Positions 19,169 through 21,148 of a stretch of DNA of 64,000 bases are shown one piece after another (the stretch's first letter is position 1; each line of letters opens with the position of its first letter). Origin of the DNA: Clostridia bacterium. GTDB lineage: Bacteria; Bacillota; Clostridia; Oscillospirales; UBA644. Both the position numbers and the translations under genes were made by a program. Below the pieces are notes generated by a model. The model ran no database searches, was not told where the DNA came from, and worked only from the letters and a program-made list of their open reading frames with translations. The stretch covers positions 62,001-126,000 of the forward strand of contig JAGBIM010000023.1 in assembly GCA_017934975.1 (NCBI GenBank). The letters are read 5' to 3'.

Positions 19169-19723
19169 TCAATCCTCCCTGTCCTTACGGACGTAAATCA
19201 AAACCGAAACCGTTCCGTAATCGTAACGGCGGCGCAGAATCAGATTTCCCTCTTCCTCCGCCTTCGTTTCTTCCCGGGAACATTCCAGAACCACGACGCC
19301 GTCCTTGGCCAGAACCGGATGGCTCCCGATCTGCTTCAACGCCCGATCGGAAAGCCCGATCTGATAAGGCGGATCCACGAAAATGACGTCGTATTCCCCT
19401 TGCGCTTCATACTTCAAAAAGCGCTTATAATCACAAAGCAACAGGCGAGCCGAAGATTCGAATCCCGTCTTCTTGAGATTCTTGCGGACAATGTCCAAAG
19501 ATTGTGGCGCGTTATCGCAAAACACGGCGTGCTTCGCTCCGCGGCTGAGACACTCGATCCCCAACTGGCCCGTACCCGCAAACAGATCCACCACCCGATC
19601 CATTTTTTCGAACTGGATGATGTTGAACATGGATTCCTTGACCCGATCCAGAGTCGGACGAACCTCTTCCCGATCGAAGCCGATCAGCAGGGTGCCGCGC
19701 TTACTTCCGCCCACAACGCGCAT
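19169..19723 (-). CDS. rsmD: 16S rRNA (guanine-966-N2) methyltransferase
   Basis: Uses S-adenosylmethionine to methylate G966 of 16S rRNA. The 184 residues contain the SAM-binding motif VDLFAGTGQLGIE and the catalytic N-methyltransferase motif FVDPPYQ; the family start MRVVGGSKRG is present. The ATG at 19723 has GGAGG 7 nt upstream; an upstream in-frame ATG has none. rsmD-coaD is a conserved pair. It is the first gene of a five-gene unit that ends at 15865. Confidence 0.95.
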   Translation of the reverse strand: MRVVGGSKRGTLLIGFDREEVRPTLDRVKESMFNIIQFEKMDRVVDLFAGTGQLGIECLSRGAKHAVFCDNAPQSLDIVRKNLKKTGFESSARLLLCDYKRFLKYEAQGEYDVIFVDPPYQIGLSDRALKQIGSHPVLAKDGVVVLECSREETKAEEEGNLILRRRYDYGTVSVLIYVRKDRED

Positions 19724-19777
19724 GGAACGCCTCCGCAATAAATATCTTTATAACATTTTACAGTTATATACAATAGC

Positions 19778-19806
19778 ATTGTACCACATATCGCGCAGGA
19801 TTGCAA
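19778..19806 (-). promoter_or_regulatory. Promoter of the rsmD-coaD operon
   Basis: On the minus strand TTGCAA (19806-19801), 17 bp, TACAAT (19783-19778) with extended -10 TGG, about 55 bp upstream of the rsmD start. Confidence 0.8.
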
Positions 19807-19964
19807 TAGTTTTTCGTTTTTTTTACCAGATTTGTAAAATTTAAACCCAATTTGGTATATTCACACCCGATATTTTGGGATTTTGCGCAAAAAGAAAAGA
19901 AGCGTGCAGAACAAAAAGGAAAAGCAAAAAACCAGCCCTTGACAAAGCCCTATCCGGAACTTGG

Positions 19965-20404
19965 ATTTAGCCGAGGAAAATTCGAGTTGGATTTTGTCGC
20001 AGATGCTCCGTAGCGTACCAAGGTACGTGAGGAGCATGGCCGACAAAAAACAAGTTCAACAAAAGTCCCACACAGAACCTGAATTTAGCCGAGGAAAATT
20101 CAAGTTGAATTTTGTCGCAGATGGTCCGCCGCGTACCGAGGTACGCAAGGAACATGGTCGACAAAAAACAATTTCAACAAAAGCCCCACACAGAACCTGA
20201 ATTTAGCCGAGGAAAATTCGAGTTGGATTTTGTCGCAGATGCTCCGTAGCGTACCAAGGTACGTGAGGAGTATGGCCGACAAAAAACAAGTTCAACAAAA
20301 GCCCCACACAGAACCTGAATTTAGCCGAGGAAAATTCGAGTTGGATTTTGTCGCAGATGGTCCGCCGCGTACCAAGGTACGCAAGGAACATGGCCGACAA
20401 AAAA
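19965..20404. repeat. Tandem array of 118-bp structured repeats, alternating A-B-A-B
   Basis: Units begin with ATTTAGCCGAGGAAAATTC at 19965, 20083, 20201 and 20319, exactly 118 bp apart; the fourth stops at about 20404. Each unit holds a long imperfect inverted repeat, from TTTTGTCG to CGACAAAA, centred on GCGTACC-AA-GGTACGC. Units 1 and 3 (type A) carry GCTCCGTAG and GTGAGGAG arms. Units 2 and 4 (type B) carry GGTCCGCCG and GCAAGGAA, so the true period may be 236 bp. The arms change together between types, as expected of a selected secondary structure. There is no coding potential: 118 is not divisible by 3. The array fills most of the 730 bp between rplA and rsmD. Confidence 0.9.
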
Positions 20405-20429
20405 GGACGCAGACTCTCGTCTGCGTCCT
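20399..20429 (-). terminator. Terminator of the rpmG-secE-nusG-rplK-rplA operon
   Basis: A perfect 10-bp stem, AGGACGCAGA with TCTGCGTCCT and a 6-nt loop, followed on the minus strand by six T residues. The U tract coincides with the CGACAAAAAA end of the last 118-bp repeat unit. Confidence 0.85.
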
Positions 20430-20457
20430 GTTCCAACCGAATTTTACCGGCTAAATT
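20430..20457. repeat. Inverted partial copy of the 118-bp repeat boundary at the rplA stop
   Basis: The plus strand reads TCCAACCGAATTTTACCGG then CTAAATTA. Its reverse complement closely matches the start of each repeat unit (AATTTAGCCGAGG, AAAATTCGAGTTGGA), with a few changes. Part of the rplA stop codon lies in this inverted copy, so the array and this copy form a large inverted pair. Confidence 0.55.
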
Positions 20458-21148
20458 ACATGAGTTTGCCGTTGTTGATCTTAATCCCGGGGCCCATGGT
20501 AGAAGCAACGACCACGCTCTTCAGGTACTGACCCTTAGCAGCAGCGGGCTTCGCCTTCACGATAGCACCCATGAGGGCGTTGAAGTTTTCTTCCAGCTTT
20601 TCAGCACCGAAGGAAACCTTGCCGATGGGGCAGTGAATGATGTTGGTCTTATCAAGACGGTATTCAATCTTACCGGCTTTGATTTCCTTAACGGCCTGAC
20701 CGATGTTCATGGACACGGTGCCGGCTTTGGGGTTGGGCATCAAGCCCTTAGGACCGAGGACTTTACCGAGACGGCCGACCAGACCCATCATGTCGGGGCA
20801 GGCAACGACAACGTCGAAATCGAACCAGTTTTCATGCTGGATCTTGGCAACGAGTTCTTCGCCGCCGACGAATTCAGCACCGGCTTCTTCGGCTTCCTTT
20901 ACCTTGTCGCCCTTAGCGAACGCAAGAACACGGACGGACTTACCGGTACCGTGGGGAAGAACGATGGCACCGCGAACCTGCTGGTCAGCATGACGGGAGT
21001 CAACGCCCAGACGAACATGGATTTCAACGGTTTCGTCGAACTTCGCCTTGGAGGTCTGGGTCACGAGGGAAAGAGCCTCGTTGGTATCGTAAAGTTTGGT
21101 TTTGTCAATGAGCTTTGCGCTCTCGATATATTTCTTACCTTTTTTCAT
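20456..21148 (-). CDS. rplA: 50S ribosomal protein L1
   Basis: Builds the L1 stalk that helps deacylated tRNA leave the E site, and in many bacteria represses its own operon. The 230 residues show the two-domain L1 fold, with [35 protein letters not shown] and [14 protein letters not shown]. The start at 21148 follows AGGAGG by 11 nt. It is the last gene of this operon. The terminator 27 bp downstream means that rplJ and rplL, which normally follow, are not co-transcribed here. Confidence 0.97.

Follow-up and report, generated by a model that had tools for sequence, protein, structure and literature searches.

The four 118-bp repeats found behind rplA, in the 64,000-nucleotide stretch of Clostridia DNA considered here (the window), probably derive from an old and divergent copy of a dispersed, non-autonomous mobile element, whose 3' half was amplified locally in tandem. 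The amplified half would consist of a capped hairpin (P3), the right arm that follows it and a linker. If this is correct, the repeat of the window is the trace of an element directed to its targets by their structure. The argument comes from relatives of the same order, where elements sharing the hairpin are flanked by duplicated hairpins, and from the genus itself, where divergent copies occupy the ends of several genes.

The array and the fold at the end of rplA

Tandem Repeats Finder reads positions 19957-20404 as a tandem array of period 118 (3.8 copies, score 749) or, alternatively, of period 236 (1.9 copies, 96% matches, score 840). Four units of 118 bp follow one another in the order A-B-A-B, as the earlier note on this DNA had described; comparison in the 118-bp register and of the unit cores confirms that description. 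The units stand head-to-tail, in a single orientation. Units and neighbouring genes are placed as follows.

20287..20404, minus strand: unit 1, type B (118-bp register comparison)
20169..20286, minus strand: unit 2, type A (118-bp register comparison)
20051..20168, minus strand: unit 3, type B (118-bp register comparison)
19933..20050, minus strand: unit 4, type A, in which the core (19957-20050) is retained and the linker (19933-19956) has diverged
20456..21148, minus strand: rplA (ribosomal protein L1), the host gene, an open reading frame with stop codon 20458-20456
19169..19738, minus strand: rsmD-like gene downstream of the array, an open reading frame named from its sequence
19778..19806, minus strand: promoter-like site of the next gene, TTGCAA-17-TACAAT, preceded by TG

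Linkers are alike in units 1-3, and unit 4, the farthest from rplA, retains the 94-nt core alone. Over this core, units of the same type agree at 90/94 and 91/94 positions and units of unlike type at 82 to 87/94, with strict A/B alternation in six of the 13 variable columns (17, 22, 23, 39, 40, 45). The same-type identity, together with the 96% match at period 236, supports the duplication of a 236-bp dimer that had been proposed. The period of 118 cannot be divided by 3, so that the units do not share a reading frame, and the description of the array as non-coding stands. So does the statement that it is not a CRISPR, a candidate that we rejected on the same grounds: the repeats are contiguous, they have no unique spacers and their linkers are alike. 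The location given for it, between a ribosomal-protein operon and rsmD, agrees with the reading frames of rplA and of the rsmD-like gene, both on the minus strand.

Two readings can be weighed at this point. The genome is a 71%-complete draft in 34 contigs, which might suggest an assembly artefact; we regard this as practically negligible, as the units differ by defined letters, the array lies within a contig of 181,756 bases, and in congeners the corresponding site holds arrays of a different make-up. The array is also intergenic, palindromic and next to a highly expressed operon, as would suit a BIME/REP-type array kept for the binding of gyrase or IHF. The earlier note had considered a BIME-like element, but all four units point in one orientation where alternation would be expected, and we find this reading extremely unlikely.

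Each unit folds on itself. Folding was computed for every unit on the plus strand and for two of the four also on the minus strand, and each of these six folds is more stable than all of 200 dinucleotide shuffles, with z from -3.6 to -6.4. The stem arms quoted previously do exist: type A is fully paired in one unit and has one wobble in the other, and type B has one mismatch, so that the remark that pairing was largely kept was fair. The stem extends beyond these arms, by TTTTGTCG...CGACAAAA outside and CGTACC/GGTACG inside. A covariance model of the hairpin made from 12 sequences (R2) gives the four units 70-75 bits on the minus strand, against 19-24 on the plus strand. Rfam has no match at gathering score in the window or in eight loci of relatives; at relaxed thresholds there are weak matches only, all under the gathering scores.

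What the earlier note overlooked is that this structure also takes in the terminator beside the array and the stop codon of rplA. Read in the sense of rplA, unit 1 and the stretch beginning within that stop codon are predicted to fold into a Y-shaped three-way junction of helices P1, P2 and P3.

20432..20457, minus strand: 5' arm of P1, beginning within the rplA stop codon and pairing with 20318-20345
20404..20429, minus strand: P2, the intrinsic terminator hairpin of rplA, then its T-run (terminator scan and fold)
20346..20402, minus strand: P3 of unit 1, a hairpin capped by CGTAC-NNNN-GTACG (fold; 72.3 bits with R2)
20318..20345, minus strand: 3' arm of P1 in unit 1 (fold and covariation)

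Unit 1 adjoins the terminator (20429-20404) and begins with the T-run of the latter. P1, with 25 bp, encloses both the terminator and the unit hairpin; its duplex reaches -30.7 kcal/mol, against -17.5 for the best of 200 shuffled 3' arms, and its 5' arm could form a duplex with any of the four right arms (-25.6 to -30.7 kcal/mol). Of the other four species in the genus, two, G002 and G003, have an equivalent fold in different letters after rplA. Over the three species, the Y fold has 57 pairs with 96.5% of cells paired, and 19 pairs have changed on both sides (shuffled mean 6.8; 0 of 500 shuffles reach 19), these figures coming from three sequences and from a structure that RNAalifold drew from the same alignment. 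Sliding the structure by 1-3 columns leaves 0 or 1 such changes, and P2 taken separately has them in 6 of its 11 pairs. The fold at rplA has been kept through compensating changes in three species. It may act as a strong 3' end beside a highly expressed operon, a part of it being seen only on readthrough; the number of units probably matters little. The array may be a source of structured RNA, as had been suggested.

The compensating changes, present in all helices, would fit a reading where the Y structure has a function as RNA at 3' ends in this genus, in mRNA stability, terminator control or protein binding, with the array supplying extra folding or binding units and the mobile relatives sharing, or having captured, its hairpin. 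However, transcription of rplA should end at P2, ahead of P3 and of the right arm, and the lack of an Rfam family at gathering score also speaks against it. We consider it unlikely as an account of the array, and come back to it below with the evidence from other loci.

The gene itself has relatives in 18 further genomes of the family, at identities of 79-97%. Y-shaped lookalikes were sought 3' of rplA at 99 loci, 98 of them long enough and folded; those that ranked level with the three copies of the genus and that we inspected, such as L098, L121, L116, L117 and L122, share neither sequence nor layout with the array and were rejected. Other short hairpin repeats are seen after rplA in other Clostridia, at L117 and L045 (GCTAAATT.../AATTTAGC; GGTTGAATCC).

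Copies within the genus

After rplA, the genome of the window (G000) has four units, G003 has three, two of them degraded, and G002 has one and a remnant. Their right (3') arms are alike within each species. In the diagnostic columns, the units of G003 read A, B, A and the remnant of G002 is A-like; A/B alternation may therefore predate G000, a weak argument as the columns are few. In G003 (L012), as in G001 (L013), rplA is followed by a lipoprotein-like reading frame and not by rsmD. The element of G003 has thus stayed with rplA in spite of another gene downstream.

Compared with its own genome by nucleotide BLAST, the array gives chance-length matches only beyond the locus. This single-locus picture is overturned by covariance models: R1, built on the three-species fold, detects divergent copies elsewhere in G000, G002 and G003, and R2 confirms them, those of G000 outside the array lying on contigs C21, C24 and C14. 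In G000 they lie after asd, after trpB and on C14. The earlier note had recommended a search of the genome and its relatives, and held that a single occurrence with no relatives would count against its views; copies are found in G000, in the genus and across the order. The genes upstream of the copies in the genus, which we take from their protein sequences to be asd, trpB, argF and tyrS, are joined by other positions away from any recognised gene end (C14 of G000, C110 of G003 and a ctsR-like leader of G003). Further tandem copies are present in this leader and, in part, at asd and trpB. In G003, contigs C6 and C30 (L160 and L164) show tandem copies between a repeated AGTCAAA motif and a ctsR-like start, an arrangement present at two contig ends; the motif resembles a CtsR box.

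In three species of the genus, divergent copies stand at the same two positions, behind rplA and behind asd. At asd, the element is present in three of the five species, its position being taken by a plain terminator in G001 and G004. These two have no copy at rplA or asd and no R2 match at E<=0.1 genome-wide; R1 still matches the rplA locus of G004 weakly, with E 0.006. An unrooted tree of rplA and asd places G000 with G003 and G002 with G004 (support 74), which, combined with the absences, calls for two losses or two gains at both rplA and asd and speaks against the preferred reading. At rplA, asd, argF and trpB, a P1-type 5' arm passes through the stop codon. The duplex made with the arm of its own locus is stronger than the mean of the mismatched-locus duplexes at 10 of 12 loci, the exceptions being asd and tyrS of G002, but it beats every mismatched partner at only five (the three rplA loci, trpB and C110). 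In favour of a functional RNA, copies in sense orientation overlap four stop codons, those of rplA, asd, argF and trpB, and every copy is absent from G001 and G004, as though a partner had been lost; the copy in the ctsR-like leader, by contrast, is not at a 3' end. As no obvious direct repeat of a hairpin was seen around the copies of the genus, their ends being read by eye, insertion is argued there from the homology of P3 and the ends.

Elements with P3 in relatives and the hairpins that flank them

The P3 core is found with R2 (E<=0.01) in 24 of 394 genomes of the order; as 13 candidates per genome were scored in this search, copy numbers are lower bounds. Outside the genus, at least five copies are present in G075, G103, G140, G152 and G183 (family f18), in G034 (family f16) and in G028 (family f10). 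In several relatives, the core lies inside multi-copy elements of about 230-290 bp. Those of f18 have 266-288 bp and ends CAG(AC/CG)TGTCAAA...TTTGACACGCTG, and L210 and L212, the two copies of f16 with both ends found by pattern, have 234 bp. Short, non-coding, multi-copy and bounded by terminal inverted repeats, these elements have the make-up of MITEs, of which the copy in the window would be a degenerate relative.

In an alignment of 41 P3 matches fitted to the model, seeds included and with four rows that are antisense readings of the palindrome, 13 of 18 pairs have changed on both sides, and the CGTAC/GTACG stem of the cap is nearly invariant. A cap so constant, above a stem that covaries, suggests that the cap is what is recognised. 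The internal loops of P3 are kept mismatched, and simple repair of a palindrome would erase them, again a point in favour of a functional RNA. The persistence of these loops also weighs against a purely local origin of the repeat, in which the hairpin would stem from snap-back copying of the 3' end of rplA beyond the terminator, template switching keeping the arms alike and slippage the units. To be sure, the 3' arm of P1 is an inverted copy of sequence near the stop codon, and 3' arms are alike within each species, as such an origin would predict. Yet homologues of P3 that share its cap are scattered over many unrelated positions in those 24 genomes, which largely refutes it, and we deem it very unlikely.

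Several variants deserve mention. In L255 and L256 (G075) and in L262 and L263 (G140), a long branched P3 replaces the short cap, with roughly 110-130 nt between CTCTACCGT and ACGCCGACGAG; this form has no Rfam match near gathering score. In G034 (L214), whole elements stand in tandem with a terminator between them. At five loci of G009, from another genus of the same family (L151, L157, L165, L168, L174), the ends have a tRNA-like look, with GGGGCTGGCTCATTTAG and, reversed, GGGGTAGCTCAGTTAGATGC, and there is no obvious hairpin repeat. Of two patterns searched in viral contigs, one led to a single contig with a P3 core, L271 (positions 625-684, CTCTACCGTACCAATGTACGCCGACGAG), the sole IMG/VR contig with that pattern. 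Neither the array nor the f18 element has a match among the plasmids and phages searched.

Evidence for mobility comes from the flanks. Sixty regions were chosen, meant as one copy each; 11 lacked the simple core pattern and four were too near a contig end, leaving 45 testable copies. Direct repeats of 22-40 bp flank the element in 29 of these (threshold 18; best score among 900 shuffles 15). All 29 repeats differ in sequence and each is a complete hairpin, with 8-18 pairs against a mean of 5.7 and a maximum of 12 in 145 random pieces of equal length; an A-run before or a T-run after, as marks a terminator, accompanies 22 of them. The distance from repeat to P3 is nearly fixed within a genome. 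The hairpin repeat is absent from the other 16 copies, among them all three of G028. A target site duplication, as MITEs have, is thus seen in relatives and not in the genus of the window, and the target is a hairpin, as for elements of the IS1182/IS1272 type. With hairpin repeats that differ from site to site at that many copies, the family looks mobile, aimed at terminators and duplicating their hairpin. The non-autonomous mobile element proposed in the earlier note is supported as the origin of the family.

An enzyme with matching ends, which that note had also recommended looking for, was not found. The DDE transposase domain of the IS1182 type (PF13751) exceeds its cut-off in one of 14 genomes, in a match that has two stops, and no intact copy was seen in the 14. 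End motifs revealed no longer, autonomous element in 20 regions, mostly around end-only matches. As a whole, then, the earlier interpretation is partly supported.

A possible route and its place among known systems

The preferred reading, amplification of part of an old mobile element, can be given a history. A transposase would recognise the terminator extruded as a cruciform; the element would be joined to both feet of the stem-loop, the hairpin then being copied by gap repair. A copy at rplA would have been fixed and later doubled to an A-B dimer through unequal exchange or slippage, the dimer being doubled again in the lineage of the window as the most recent step. Such elements would be tolerated because insertion leaves a terminator hairpin on both sides. 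More tentatively, the whole set may represent a new family of structure-guided mobile elements of the Clostridia, inserting at the foot of intrinsic terminators and copying the whole hairpin so that the stop is preserved on both sides. It would carry a capped RNA/DNA hairpin in short and long branched forms, have been fixed in one genus as 3' folds that overlap stop codons, and have grown in tandem into the array. No description of this family was met in the literature on terminator-targeting elements and MITEs, as covered by titles and the beginnings of abstracts, subscription journals being largely outside. If hairpins are truly duplicated at 29 different sites, structure-directed transposition becomes directly testable.

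Group IIC introns also insert beside terminator hairpins. They are not known to duplicate the hairpin; P3 elements are far shorter, and the tested loci have no Rfam match at gathering score. With BIME and REP sequences the array shares an intergenic, palindromic character, but the REPs of BIMEs alternate in orientation, and the units of the array do not. Bacterial MITEs (PMC10969869) are likewise short, non-coding, dispersed and foldable, with inverted ends; the P3 family differs by conserving an internal capped hairpin across families, and not only its ends, and by a duplicated target that is a hairpin of 22-40 bp. A close parallel is with IS1272 and TnSha1, of the IS1182 family in Staphylococcus, which insert at hairpins, several of them terminators, chosen by shape without sequence consensus (PMC5678879; PMC4923244). 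There the hairpin is deleted or replaced and no duplication results, whereas P3 elements have a hairpin on both sides. Duplication of the whole stem-loop, through joining at its 5' feet, is drawn as a mere possibility in the discussion of the IS1272 work (PMC5678879), and it is the geometry of this route that P3 elements display, the transposase step being the part that we would supply by conjecture.
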